A DNA stretch of 21,685 nucleotides, taken from positions 1 to 21,685 of the IMG/VR virus record IMGVR_UViG_3300037493_004027. One strand, written 5' to 3'. The notes under the pieces are model-generated. The model made no database searches. It was not told the DNA's origin and worked only from the letters and a program-made list of their open reading frames with translations. This stretch comes from a virus. Each line of letters opens with the position of its first letter. Within the stretch, counting starts at the first letter, position 1. Of the stretch, positions 6,531-19,707 are shown one piece after another. Made by a program: the position numbers and the translations under genes.

Positions 6531-6748
6531 CCGCTCAAGAAAAGCAGGACTACCTAGAGAAGGTTGCGTCTGATCTTGGTGAGCATTTTGATTGTGTTCA
6601 AATCTTGGCACACGACTCAGACACCGACACCTACCAGACTTTCGAGGCTGGTTCAGGGAGCCTGTTTGCACGTCTGTATCAGGCCATGCGGTGGTCAGAG
6701 GAACCAGTGGACGCACTAGAGGAGGACGATGACGAATCTATCGAGTAA
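6527..6748 (+). CDS. Small acidic protein
   Basis: A 73-residue protein with a strongly acidic C-terminus (EEPVDALEEDDDESIE) and a centre matching a pattern I have seen in short phage proteins (LGEHFDCVQILAHDSDTDT). It starts in an ATGA overlap and its last 20 bases overlap the endolysin start, so the two are probably translated together. DNA-mimic or accessory roles are possible but unsupported. Function unknown. Confidence 0.6.
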   Translation: MTAQEKQDYLEKVASDLGEHFDCVQILAHDSDTDTYQTFEAGSGSLFARLYQAMRWSEEPVDALEEDDDESIE

Positions 6749-11146: not shown

Positions 11147-12487
11147 ATGAGAGAGCCAACCATCCCGCAGGCTGAACAAGCCGAGCGGGCAGTGCTGGGG
11201 TGTCTACTTTTTGCGCCATCCCTTGCACTGCCAACTGTCGCCGCTACTGGTATAGCCCAGGGTGACTTCCATAATACCCAGTACGGGGCGATCTTTGCTG
11301 GTATCCAAGACTCTGCCCGAGCGGGCCTGAGTACGGACCCCATCGTGTTGTTTGCCCGGCTTGCCAAGACCGGCATCCCGTACAGCATCCTGTCCGACTT
11401 GGCCTCAGGGATGCCGTCGCTCGAACCGCTCCCGAGCTGGTGTGAAGTGGTACAAGACGCAGCCCGGCGCCGGGAGCTACTGACTGCGCTGAGTAAGGCG
11501 GCTAGTGCTATCTCAGCAGGAGAGGCTACAGAACAGGTCGTAGCCGGCCTGAGTGTAGCGACACTGACTGCCAACGCTGAACGTGGGCTGGGTTCTATAG
11601 TACAGAGCACGTTCAATGACCTGCTGTTCTATGATACAGAGAACGATAGAAACACGCTGATCGGTAACCGCTGGCTGTGCAAAGGCGGGAGCGTTCTGAT
11701 AAATGCTCAGTCTGGTATCGGCAAAAGCAGTCTGACTATGCAGCTTGCAATAGGCTGGGCGCTGCACGGGATAGGTGCTTTCTCTGAAGTGCTGACCTTT
11801 GGCCTGATCCCAGTCAAACCGCTTAAGAGCCTGATTATACAAGCCGAGAATGACCAAGGCGATCAAGCCGAGGTCTTGCAATCTGTGTTTTGCAAGTATG
11901 GGAAAAGCCAGTGTGGAGAGACTGAGAGGGCTCTTCTAAACGAGCGGGTGATCTTCTATCGCGATAACATTCACTCTGGGCCGGAGTTCTTGAGGGTGCT
12001 AGAGACGCTTGTCCTTAAACACGCCCCGGACGTTGTCTGGATTGATCCGCTGATGTGTTACTTGGGAGACGACATCAGTGACCAGGCAGTGGTTACCAAG
12101 TTTTGTAATGAACTCAATAGGATCTCCTCGAAGACCGGGGTGCTACTGGCGATCATTCATCACTTACCAAAGCCCAAGGAGACATCTGCACGAACTGACT
12201 CTGACTTGGCCTACAGTGGCTTTGGCTCGTCTGCTCTTACGAACTGGGCACGGGAAGTCATCACACTCCAGCGTGTAGAGACAGAGGAGAACCAGCCTTT
12301 GACATGTAGTCTGACGATGACCAAGCGCCGGCTGCGCTCCAACATCAAGTGTTTTGAGAAGGGTCAGCCAACCTCGAAGATCTACATTCGCCACAGCCCT
12401 ACACCTGAAAGACACGGGATGATCTGGCAGCAGTGTCTAAAACCAATCATCGAAAAGGACGATGAGAAACCAAAGAGAAGACGATGA
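11147..12487 (+). CDS. Replicative DNA helicase-like protein (DnaB N-domain plus RecA-like ATPase)
   Basis: A 446-residue protein. Residues 1-110 match the DnaB N-terminal domain (PQAEQAERAVLGCLLFAP, FHNTQYGAIFAGIQ). Residues 170-420 are a RecA/RepA-type ATPase: Walker A AQSGIGKSS with K193, Walker B DVVWIDP with D300, and the IHHLPKPKE region (about 338-347) in the position of the sensor histidine. Such proteins unwind DNA ahead of the replication fork. Absence of a primase domain implies that a separate or host primase is used. It starts three bases after the previous stop and ends in an ATGA overlap with the next gene. Confidence 0.75.
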   Translation: MREPTIPQAEQAERAVLGCLLFAPSLALPTVAATGIAQGDFHNTQYGAIFAGIQDSARAGLSTDPIVLFARLAKTGIPYSILSDLASGMPSLEPLPSWCEVVQDAARRRELLTALSKAASAISAGEATEQVVAGLSVATLTANAERGLGSIVQSTFNDLLFYDTENDRNTLIGNRWLCKGGSVLINAQSGIGKSSLTMQLAIGWALHGIGAFSEVLTFGLIPVKPLKSLIIQAENDQGDQAEVLQSVFCKYGKSQCGETERALLNERVIFYRDNIHSGPEFLRVLETLVLKHAPDVVWIDPLMCYLGDDISDQAVVTKFCNELNRISSKTGVLLAIIHHLPKPKETSARTDSDLAYSGFGSSALTNWAREVITLQRVETEENQPLTCSLTMTKRRLRSNIKCFEKGQPTSKIYIRHSPTPERHGMIWQQCLKPIIEKDDEKPKRRR

Positions 12488-13029
12488 ACTACACAAAGAT
12501 TGGAGCACTACAAACGCACAGGTACATCTGGGTGGACAGTGCCTACACACACGAGGAGCCTGTGGGCCTCGTAGAAGCCATATGGGTGGGCCTGACATCC
12601 ATCCCTGGACGAGCGTGGGGCATTAACGTCATCCTTCGAGACGGGGGCGCACTGTATCGCAATATCCCGCCTCATGCAGTAGCGTTCACCACTGAGCCAG
12701 AGCACGATTGGATCATTTGTGAAGCCCAGCTTTGGGACTGTTACAGCTATCATTTCTCAGTGCTGCAAAACCCGATTATGCGTGGAATGGAGGTGTCTGT
12801 AAGGGTGGAGGACAAGGTGCTGCATGGGGAATATCTCTTCTCTACTGCCCACCTACACGACGGCTGGTCAGACGCCCCGGAGCAGGATAAAGAGTTCATT
12901 TTTGTGAAGCTGAACAATGGCCGGCTGACGATTCAGCCCACAAACAGGGTGCGCTTCATCGACCACAGCTTCACGACAGAGGAGCTTCCAAAGTTGAAAT
13001 TGCAGGAAACCGTGTACAGTTGCGAATAA
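12484..13029 (+). CDS. Conserved phage hypothetical protein
   Basis: A 181-residue protein of a type I recall from other phage genomes near replication genes, characterised by GGALYRNIPPHAVAF (about 54-68), AQLWDCYSY (80-88), GEYLFSTAHLHDGWSDAPEQ (116-135) and IQPTNRVRFIDHSFT (about 151-165). It appears soluble and strand-rich. No enzymatic motif can be named. It is coupled to the helicase by ATGA and to the winged-helix gene by TAATG, so it is probably expressed in the replication block. Function unknown. Confidence 0.6.
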   Translation: MNYTKIGALQTHRYIWVDSAYTHEEPVGLVEAIWVGLTSIPGRAWGINVILRDGGALYRNIPPHAVAFTTEPEHDWIICEAQLWDCYSYHFSVLQNPIMRGMEVSVRVEDKVLHGEYLFSTAHLHDGWSDAPEQDKEFIFVKLNNGRLTIQPTNRVRFIDHSFTTEELPKLKLQETVYSCE

Positions 13030-13700
13030 TGAACACACGCTCTGAGAACCCAAAAGAGGAAGGTCCATACGCCTGGCAGACTCGTGATGCCGCCATCCAA
13101 GCCGGCAAGTTAGGCATCAATGCTTACGCAATTTACTGCGCACTTACCCACTTCCAGAGCGCGGCAGCGACTGACCATAAGAGACGTTTTTCGGCGTCTT
13201 ACGAGCAACTCGCAGAGCATGTGGGATGCTCTCGTGGGACTGTCAAAACGGCACTTGATGCGCTCGAAAAGGAAGGACTCATCCGCAAGTTTTCGGGCTC
13301 AAATGGAGGCTACCGGGCAACCCGGAATGCCTTTTTTTTGACTACGATTAGCAGTCCACCACATGGACGCGGCAGTACACCACATGAACTGCACGTGAGT
13401 ACACGTGGTGAACTGCACGTGAGTACACCACATGGACGCTTTAGAGATAAAGAGAACAGATTTAAGGCGGGGCCTCAAGCCCCCGCCGTTAAATCAGAGA
13501 AGGAGAAAAGTGAGCCCGCTTGCTCGCCCTTGAGGGGCGGCAGCGGGCCACGAGAGAACCCGGACATCATCCATGACTTTTCGCATCTGCCAGAACGTGA
13601 CAGGGCGTACATGGTGGCTATGCGTGCAATCGCTGCCGAGGCTGACGCTGAGATCGCAGAGCAGGTCCGCAAAAAGCGGGAGGCTGAAAACTTTTCCTAA
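13029..13700 (+). CDS. Winged-helix replication protein / initiator candidate with intragenic iterons
   Basis: A 223-residue protein starting at ATG 13029 (TAATG overlap). Residues 1-50 are a soluble helical region containing KLGINAYAIYCALTHFQSAA. Residues 54-90 (ASYEQLAEHVGCSRGTVKTA, then LDALEKEGLIRKF) are a clear winged helix. Residues 109-138 are a peptide repeat (STPHELHV, STRGELHV, STPHGRF) encoded by four iteron-like DNA repeats. A Pro/Lys/Gly-rich linker and a charged helical C-terminus (YMVAMRAIAAEADAEIAEQV) follow. It resembles lambda O in that the gene appears to carry its own binding sites. An eight-T run at 13332-13339 sits just after the winged helix. Confidence 0.7.
   Translation: MNTRSENPKEEGPYAWQTRDAAIQAGKLGINAYAIYCALTHFQSAAATDHKRRFSASYEQLAEHVGCSRGTVKTALDALEKEGLIRKFSGSNGGYRATRNAFFLTTISSPPHGRGSTPHELHVSTRGELHVSTPHGRFRDKENRFKAGPQAPAVKSEKEKSEPACSPLRGGSGPRENPDIIHDFSHLPERDRAYMVAMRAIAAEADAEIAEQVRKKREAENFS
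13353..13442. repeat. Iteron-like array, four units (candidate replication origin)
   Basis: Four units begin with AGT at 13353, 13374, 13398 and 13422 (spacings 21, 24 and 24 bases). The consensus is AGT-A/C-CACCACATG-G/A-AC; unit 3 has the core inverted (CACGTGGTG). They lie in frame inside the winged-helix gene. AT-richer DNA (13441-13465) and a strong hairpin (13461-13493) follow. This layout matches the lambda ori inside gene O. Confidence 0.55.
13461..13493. other. GC-rich hairpin inside the replication gene
   Basis: TTTAA-GGCGGGG pairs with CCCCGCC-g-TTAAA around an 8-base loop, giving 12 pairs and one bulged base. It sits inside a coding frame directly after the iteron array and its AT-rich stretch, so it is not an operon-end terminator. 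It could serve origin function or pause transcription. Confidence 0.55.
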
Positions 13701-14817: not shown

Positions 14818-15108
14818 ATGACCGACGACCAAATCAACTGGGCAATTACCGAAGCCATAGGCGCCGATCCCCACTGGAAGTGTGCCAAAGACTACTGCAA
14901 CGACCTTAACGCCATGCATGAGGCGGAGAAGTTTTTAAGGGACGCCAATTTGCTGTTTGAATATGGAATGCACATAACAAACTCTCATCACTACGAGTAC
15001 TTACTTAGGGCAACAGCCCGCGAACGTGCAGAGGCGTTCTTGCGCACGCTGGGCAAATGGGAGGAGGTAGTAGTCAAGGAATCCTTTACAACTGAGGAGG
15101 TCAAATGA
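14818..15108 (+). CDS. Tandem paralogue 1, phage ABA-sandwich-like family
   Basis: A 96-residue member of a three-gene tandem family. The shared core is MTDDQINWAITEA at the N-terminus, YCNDLNAMHEAEK (about 27-39) and ATARERAEAFLRTLGKWEE near the end. This pattern fits small phage proteins of the Phage_ABA_S type (PF18066), whose function is unknown. This copy lacks about 10-14 residues present in the other two between the first and second blocks, and has an extra C-terminal tail (VVVKESFTTEEVK). It is coupled to the next copy by ATGA; AGGAGGT just upstream of that ATG is a strong SD. Confidence 0.7.
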   Translation: MTDDQINWAITEAIGADPHWKCAKDYCNDLNAMHEAEKFLRDANLLFEYGMHITNSHHYEYLLRATARERAEAFLRTLGKWEEVVVKESFTTEEVK

Positions 15109-15395
15109 CCAACGAACAAATCAACGAGGCTATCGCCAAAGCCTGCGGGTGGAGAAAAGAAGACGGTGTGTGGATGTGGACAGCAAACGGAATTGACTGC
15201 ACTTATCCAGAGTTGTGGGACTGGTGCAACGACCTCAACGCGATGCACGAGGCTGAGAAGACGCTGACATCCGTTCAGCTTTTGGACTACATCGCGTTTT
15301 TGTTCGACGCAACTTATGAGGCTACCGTGGCAACAGCCCGTCAACGCGCAGAGGCTTTCCTACGGAGGATTGGCAAATGGGAGGACGCAAAATGA
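15105..15395 (+). CDS. Tandem paralogue 2, phage ABA-sandwich-like family
   Basis: A 96-residue protein with the family blocks MTNEQINEAIAKACGW, CNDLNAMHEAEK and ATARQRAEAFLRRIGKWED. It carries a fuller insert (WMWTANGIDCTYPELWDW) between the first two blocks than paralogue 1. The start overlaps the previous stop (ATGA) with SD AGGAGGT, and its own end overlaps the next copy the same way. Tandem duplication followed by drift is the simplest origin; function unknown. Confidence 0.7.
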   Translation: MTNEQINEAIAKACGWRKEDGVWMWTANGIDCTYPELWDWCNDLNAMHEAEKTLTSVQLLDYIAFLFDATYEATVATARQRAEAFLRRIGKWEDAK

Positions 15396-15688
15396 CTGAC
15401 CAGCAAATCGACCAAGCCATTGCTGAAGCCTGCGGCATCGTGGGCAAAAACCAGTATGGCCCGCTGTACCAGACCCCAGACGGCTGGGTCGTGGACTGCC
15501 CTCAGTTTTGCACAGACCTCAACGCGATGCACGAGGCAGAGAAGCACCTCTTTGATGCACGCAAAGACAACCAATACGGCTACGAGTTGGCGATAAGCGA
15601 GTGCACGACGATGTGGCACGCGACAGCCAGAGAGCGGGCAGAGGCTTTTCTTAAGGCACTTGGCAAATGGGAGGAGGTGCAAGGATGA
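15392..15688 (+). CDS. Tandem paralogue 3, phage ABA-sandwich-like family
   Basis: A 98-residue protein with the blocks MTDQQIDQAIAEACG, CTDLNAMHEAEKHL and ATARERAEAFLKALGKWEE. The start at 15392 is used because it forms an ATGA overlap and has GGAGG upstream. An earlier in-frame start at 15377 lies in the preceding gene. The variable region (KNQYGPLYQTPDGWVVD) differs from the other copies, so the three may have diverged in target. Function unknown. Confidence 0.7.
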   Translation: MTDQQIDQAIAEACGIVGKNQYGPLYQTPDGWVVDCPQFCTDLNAMHEAEKHLFDARKDNQYGYELAISECTTMWHATARERAEAFLKALGKWEEVQG

Positions 15689-16961: not shown

Positions 16962-17318
16962 TTACTTGGTAGCGTCAAAGGCTGCTGCGAGGAGGGGGTT
17001 GGATTGCCGGACTTCACGGGCAACCGCTTTATAGATCTCAAGACTGATCTCGTCGGTGTATCGACTAGCCTGCTTGGGACTCATGTAGGCTTCGAGGGCG
17101 CTAAACTCGTCCCAGAGGTCTTTGTCGCACACCATGTCTTCGATGCCCTGTGGATCGCACCAGCTTCCTATGGCGCCGACAGTTTTTTGCGAAGACAACT
17201 CATTCTTCTTAAGGTAGCTCTTCATGGTGGCGATCAGTTCGTTTACTTGGGAGTCAGTTAGTTTCATGGGGTAGTGGTTTGTAGTAGATTCGTTTTGGCC
17301 GAGTAAATCACTTTTCAT
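16962..17318 (-). CDS. Hypothetical soluble protein, uncertain start
   Basis: Up to 118 residues if started at ATG 17318; an internal ATG at 17267 (MKLTDSQVNELIATMKSYLK) gives 101. The first 17 residues (MKSDLLGQNESTTNHYP) fall within a leader segment that is duplicated upstream at about 17436-17490, where it encodes only a 7-residue peptide. The shorter start is therefore possible. No SD is seen before either. The body is helical and charged with no known motif. Confidence 0.6.
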   Translation of the reverse strand: MKSDLLGQNESTTNHYPMKLTDSQVNELIATMKSYLKKNELSSQKTVGAIGSWCDPQGIEDMVCDKDLWDEFSALEAYMSPKQASRYTDEISLEIYKAVAREVRQSNPLLAAAFDATK

Positions 17319-17337
17319 ATTTTGGTTTTTGTGATTT

Positions 17338-17354: not shown

Positions 17355-17439
17355 TAGCGGAGAGCGGGAGGTTTAGGAAAATCTTCTTGGGCGGGCGAGA
17401 TTGTTGGACTCCCGGCGAGCCAGCTCCAGGGCGGGTCCG

Positions 17440-17454
17440 TTTTACCGGGTAAAA
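17440..17454. promoter_or_regulatory. 15-base palindrome in duplicated leader
   Basis: TTTTACC-g-GGTAAAA is a perfect 7-1-7 palindrome. It lies at the end of the second copy of the leader segment; the equivalent place near 17300 has a degraded version (TTTTGGCCGAGTAAAT). Confidence 0.35.
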
Positions 17455-17756
17455 TGACTTTCCATATTTTGGTTTTCTGATTTTGGATTTTCCCTTTTTG
17501 GTCTTGGAAAATGGGCCATTCTGGGGGTGCCTAGGGTGTCAGAGGGGGTGGCCTTGGGCGCCTTTGGGGGTGAGGAGCACACTTGGAATGGTGCTTTCTA
17601 AGGGCATGAAGGGCCATTAAAGGGGTGCTTGTTTGTTGGTGGCATAGGTGACCGCGGATTAAAGGGAAACAGCTTTTAAGAGGGTGTTTTGTGCGTTAGG
17701 GAAGCGTATAGGGAAAAGGGGTGGAAAGGGTAGGGAATGGGGGCGTGAAAACAAGA

Positions 17757-19488: not shown

Positions 19489-19707
19489 TTAGGCGCAAAG
19501 GGCAACAACGACGGCGCGCTTGGCGTTGGTCAATGCAACGCGCTGGTCAATGCAAGCGAGGAAAATGTGATGGCGGCGAATGTGAATCGCGTAGTTGCTA
19601 GTCTTGCGAGCCAAACGGTTGGAGCGGATGATTGCTAAAGTCCTTGTGCAAGTGATGCTTGTAAGCTTTTTGGCGATGCGGGGCGGGAGTTGATTGATTG
19701 CTGTCAT
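19489..19707 (-). CDS. Small basic protein, first gene of the leftward operon
   Basis: A 72-residue, highly basic protein (MTAINQLPPRIAKKLTSITC...RSNRLARK) with an SD (AAAGGA) 4-9 bases before its ATG. The pattern of basic residues and short hydrophobic stretches suggests nucleic-acid contact, but no known fold is seen. It heads the minus operon that also contains the clamp-like gene. Confidence 0.55.
   Translation of the reverse strand: MTAINQLPPRIAKKLTSITCTRTLAIIRSNRLARKTSNYAIHIRRHHIFLACIDQRVALTNAKRAVVVALCA

Follow-up and report, generated by a model that had tools for sequence, protein, structure and literature searches.

A probable lambda O-like replication origin within the initiator gene of an uncultivated phage, with a recognition helix and iterons that switch together

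The stretch of DNA considered here, called the window throughout, is the whole of a virus record of 21,685 bases (IMGVR_UViG_3300037493_004027), and our subject is a candidate replication origin that lies inside the gene of the phage's own putative initiator (Table 1). The ATG of this gene, at 13029, overlaps the stop codon of the gene upstream. Beyond the part that encodes a winged-helix domain, the gene holds four short inverted repeats, referred to as iterons, followed by an A-rich tract and a hairpin. The initial annotation of this DNA had the initiator gene follow a DnaB-type helicase gene; a helicase-like gene does lie upstream, with one gene between the two (12484-13029; match to phrog_3704, 'ferredoxin', moron category).

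Table 1. Features of the initiator locus. Positions are those of the window; aa, amino acids; nt, nucleotides; pLDDT, predicted local distance difference test score.
Feature	Position	Strand	Basis or remark
O-like replication initiator gene, 223 aa	13029..13700	+	PHROG 270/678/391 replication initiation (O-like); Pfam HTH_36 above cut-off
Winged-helix DNA-binding domain, aa 17-98	13077..13322	+	AlphaFold2 on 30 sequences, pLDDT 79.5
Recognition helix, aa 68-81 (SRGTVKTALDALEK)	13230..13271	+	Switches with iteron class; helix 69-81 in models
Iteron 1	13354..13368	.	GTCCA-CCACA-TGGAC
Iteron 2	13375..13389	.	GTACA-CCACA-TGAAC
Iteron 3	13399..13413	.	GTACA-CGTGG-TGAAC; arms unchanged, spacer different
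Iteron 4	13423..13437	.	GTACA-CCACA-TGGAC
A-rich tract, presumed unwinding region	13440..13465	+	About 26 nt, 77% AT; role inferred
Conserved hairpin, 37 nt, 14 pairs, bulged G	13459..13495	+	Covariation; DNA folding z -5.1
Replicative helicase-like gene, presumed partner	11147..12487	+	DnaB N-terminal domain and AAA_25

Four repeat units start at 13353, 13374, 13398 and 13422, exactly where they had been placed initially; they are spaced by 21, 24 and 24 bases and all lie in frame. Each iteron is a dyad, GTnCA-N5-TGnAC, with 5-nt arms around a free 5-nt spacer. The third unit, first described as inverted, turned out to be the same palindromic dyad with the spacer CGTGG in place of CCACA. The pattern AGTNCACCACATGNAC has three exact matches and one reverse-strand match with one mismatch (13399-13414), and the three other matches in the window carry three mismatches each. 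A recoding test was performed in which the peptide was held fixed and synonymous codons were redrawn from window usage over 100,000 rounds. The observed arm palindromy (17/20; maximum reached 15), half-site identity (119/140; maximum 100) and direct-repeat identity (77/96; maximum 71) were never attained (P<1e-5). Recoding never matched the observed repeats, and it is therefore the DNA, not the peptide, that is kept. Histidine codons are CAT within the dyads and CAC in the linkers. Judged by its sequence, the window's repeat array is real and selected at the DNA level.

Relatives were collected from scans of viral contigs, which gave 40 distinct genes including that of the window and later four more, or 44 in all. 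Scans of 84,980 species genomes with the initiator and then the helicase (two scans) returned no relative, and neither did a tblastn search of 50,697 phage records. All genes carry three to five dyads at the same place, and the 40 first analysed share the N5 spacer length and the 21/24-nt spacing. Over the 163 dyads of the 40 genes, the arms matched at 4.02 of 5 positions versus 1.26 at 6,634 in-phase control positions in these genes. The number of units changes by whole units, with three dyads in L064 (gene from 2501) and five in L029, L053, L055 and L056.

The half-sites of the 44 genes fall into seven classes, each with its own helix: SRGTV[KN] goes with GTnCA (class A), SQRTVCR with CGCC, SERTVAR with TG[AC]C, [SA]KNTV[AS]R with ACCC, STKT[IV]QR with GGAC, SRGTVRIAI with GGTC and SRATVAR with GT[AC]TC. 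Helix class and half-site class agree in every one of the 44 genes. Among the class-A units (n=69), 138 of 138 half-sites read GT[ACT]CA, whereas at least ten different spacers occur (CCACA, CAGTT, CCAGA, CGTGG and others). The peptides encoded by the iterons are wholly different between classes (STPHG, NAPQA, KPSQG, RDCES, RSPQD, SLTQI), with the dyad geometry fixed. That the dyad stays in relatives while the peptide changes is the reverse of the outcome, a peptide kept and its DNA repeat lost, that the initial annotation had named as contrary to an origin. One class-B origin, that of L043 (gene from 1522), has a third dyad with one class-C half-site (ACGCC-TCACA-GTCAG), which may be a mosaic.

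The pair L003 (class A) and L004 (class B), compared in 24-nt steps, differs at 31/96 positions over the helix codons and at 36/96 over the iterons. The intervening step has 2/24 differences, and the rest of the initiator gene has few. At least ten class changes were seen on a tree built without helix or iterons. Because helix and iterons are close together, single recombination events have probably moved both. Rules relating residues to bases were drawn up from six classes, before the seventh (L076) was found. Arg74 goes with C at the inner position of the half-site (44/44 genes), Arg69 with G at its outer position (43/44 genes) and residue 70 with the middle base, G70 being found with a free base. 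The later-found L076, with R69, A70 and R74 and the half-site GT[AC]TC, conforms to the rule. Mutual information with the half-site, computed over the N-terminal 107 columns, peaks at columns 73, 77, 69 and 70. We put this residue-base rule forward as a hypothesis drawn from seven classes. The switching residues may be analogous to residues 180, 181 and 185 of CRP, an analogy in line with weak profile matches to that protein.

The winged helix named in the initial annotation was recovered by AlphaFold2, and the segment that switches is the recognition helix of its helix-turn-helix. The model of the full-length protein was poor (pLDDT 59), and the winged-helix domain alone was used instead. In the PDB, Foldseek matched it to the folds of MarR, of CodY and of initiators of the RepA type (including 4pt7 and 5kbj; E about 0.002-0.01), and in BFVD to lambda GpO-N-type proteins and the O protein of phage Min27. 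All 14 family members scanned have PHROG replication-initiation matches, and the O-like families phrog_678, 391 and 345 match the window protein and lambda O alike. By this analysis the initiator would resemble lambda O in its working, the link running through shared PHROG families and not through a Phage_rep_O match, and we do not claim common descent. The region encoded by the iterons is predicted to be disordered, which fits the flexible linker reported in lambda O (PMC6022878).

Following the last dyad, about 26 nt are 62-81% AT in 40/40 genes, and the hairpin comes next. The AT-richer DNA of the initial annotation is thus present but short, and its 12-pair hairpin exists with 14 pairs and a 1-nt bulge. 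Every gene has seven perfect outer pairs, which start 19-22 nt past the last dyad with a single exception. Covariation was scored at nine pairs in 19 distinct sequences, giving 171 cells. Pairing was 100%, as against 30-52% in slid controls; 52 cells had changed on both sides and none on one side alone, and G-U pairs were absent. The lack of G-U pairs favours a DNA element over an RNA one, and from its covariation the hairpin looks like a structure that acts as DNA. Since an identical hairpin sequence is seen with different iteron classes, its reader would not be the class-specific helix. In Rfam, no match attained the gathering score of its family. A search of viral contigs with the hairpin core returned family members and matches without origin context, the latter judged to be chance.

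Based on these observations, we read the locus as a phage replication origin contained in its own initiator's gene, on the pattern of lambda gene O, with a probability of roughly 0.88; its four in-gene sites would very probably be bound by the initiator to start copying. This upholds the original suggestion of a lambda O-like origin within a replication gene, and it draws support from the tracking of half-site and helix in 44/44 genes and from the lambda ori layout. Comparison of the family's sequences has demonstrated that the dyads are selected as DNA and keep a fixed geometry, that helix and half-site switch together and that the hairpin covaries in the manner of a DNA element. Several points weigh against an origin of this kind. 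In the window and four longer relatives, GC skew follows gene direction and is uninformative, with no turning point at the site, and the A-rich tract is shorter than that of lambda. In Pfam, the window protein, L054 and L059 (class D) match helix-turn-helix families instead of Phage_rep_O (PF04492), which lambda O matches at 5.7e-36, and direct profile comparison of the window protein with lambda O found nothing. Class switches on well-supported branches are few (three independent pairs for Arg74 and four for Arg69); almost without exception they are concordant, but their number is too small for a sign test. With helix and iterons about 100 nt apart, one recombination can carry both.

The same dyads could also be operators, at which the protein would act within its own gene as a repressor or a regulator of copy number, while replication starts elsewhere. 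The fold is indeed like that of MarR/CodY regulators and the dyads resemble dimeric operators; however, the uniform replication-initiation matches, the helicase gene nearby and the placing of a multi-copy array in a coding region, beside an A-rich tract and a hairpin as in lambda ori, all speak against a repressor. In addition, the four longer relatives (37-41 kb) have no cluster of dyads other than the one at this site. Given an array inside the gene, a setting among replication genes and a layout like that of lambda, we consider a repressor unlikely, its chance being slight. Alternatively, what is kept might be a repetitive linker peptide, and the DNA repeat merely the trace of a recent tandem duplication. 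This would account for units that are multiples of a codon, and the range of three to five units indicates that duplication does occur. We rejected this explanation, which retains next to no probability, because codon choice departs from the needs of the peptide and the peptides turn over between classes under a fixed dyad geometry; the predicted disorder of the region also tells against it.

A narrower alternative concerns the hairpin only, which might be an RNA element (a terminator or an mRNA regulatory hairpin) unrelated to replication. The gene that holds it is transcribed, and the structure is highly stable, but the freedom from G-U pairs and one-sided changes, the missing T-run after it, its nearly constant place (about 21 nt past the last dyad) and the absence of an Rfam family at gathering score make this doubtful, with a small but real chance.

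If the locus is an origin, a winged-helix dimer (residues 17-98) would bind each of the four dyads, with one recognition helix per GTnCA half-site. Dimers about two helical turns apart could stack, wrap the array and help to open the adjoining A-rich tract, and the C-terminal helix (residues 189-221) may bring in the phage-encoded DnaB/RepA-type helicase. The downstream hairpin would probably work as DNA in single-stranded or extruded form, and may be where priming or loading takes place. The helicase-like gene was found in 12/12 relative records searched (66-94% identical). No P-like helicase loader gene was seen among the neighbours scanned, the phage's helicase-like gene being present instead.

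We suggest tentatively, and at somewhat less than even odds, that this uncultivated phage family swaps specificity as a self-contained one-gene cassette, in which the helix and the iterons that it reads, some 100 nt from each other, change together by simple residue-base rules, with a hairpin common to the classes as the site of single-strand loading or priming. For lambdoid phages it has long been asked how specificity can shift in both origin and initiator without passing through an inviable intermediate. Here both partners reside in one gene, and seven natural specificity classes occur in closely related backgrounds, so that the 44 related phages form a natural data set on the matching of origin and initiator. 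The simple residue-to-base code is open to testing with purified proteins, and the conserved hairpin offers a second testable origin element.

Elsewhere in the window, three tandem paralogous open reading frames (ORFs) of about 96-103 amino acids each, without a PHROG match, occupy 14818-15688. A pair of 39-nt direct repeats, 79% alike, lies at 17291-17329 and 17438-17476; each contains AAAACCAAAATATG on the minus strand, and that of the first repeat is the start of a minus-strand ORF (16962-17318). A 16-nt tandem repeat, GCG[TC]TGGTCAATGCAA, with a spacing of 17 (19523-19555), is possibly a regulatory site.

The closest known system for comparison is lambda (NC_001416), whose annotated iterons start at 39034, 39054, 39078 and 39101 (spacing 20/24/23) and have CCCTC-like arms around five bases; A-rich DNA comes after them, as does a palindrome able to form a hairpin. 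Lambda O dimers bind these inverted-repeat iterons beside an AT-rich tract of 38-40 bp (PMC5043065, PMC3349717, PMC6022878). As in lambda ori, the window's array lies inside the initiator gene, after an N-terminal DNA-binding domain, and consists of four iterons, each an imperfect inverted repeat about a centre of 5 nt, at a spacing within 20-24 bp (21/24/24 here), with an A-rich tract and a palindrome after it and a disordered linker at the origin. In contrast to lambda, the half-sites are different, the spacing is always a multiple of three, the A-rich tract is about 26 nt rather than 38-40 bp and the hairpin is bulged and strongly covarying. The window phage also has its own helicase-like gene with no P-type loader among the neighbours scanned, and its protein is without a Phage_rep_O match. 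Beside lambda O, phi80 and 82 represent other specificity types. Iteron plasmid origins of the RepA/RepE type likewise have a winged-helix initiator and an array of initiator sites by an A-rich tract; however, their iterons are direct repeats bound by monomers, and we set this type aside for the window, where the sites are inverted repeats inside the initiator gene. Near-identical genomes with an exchange of the initiator's winged helix have been described in Gordonia phages from protein sequence (PMC10684548). Like the window family, these phages have closely related genomes with initiators that diverge in their DNA-binding part; the description there did not take in the DNA sites, whereas in the window family the matching sites are seen to change with the helix.
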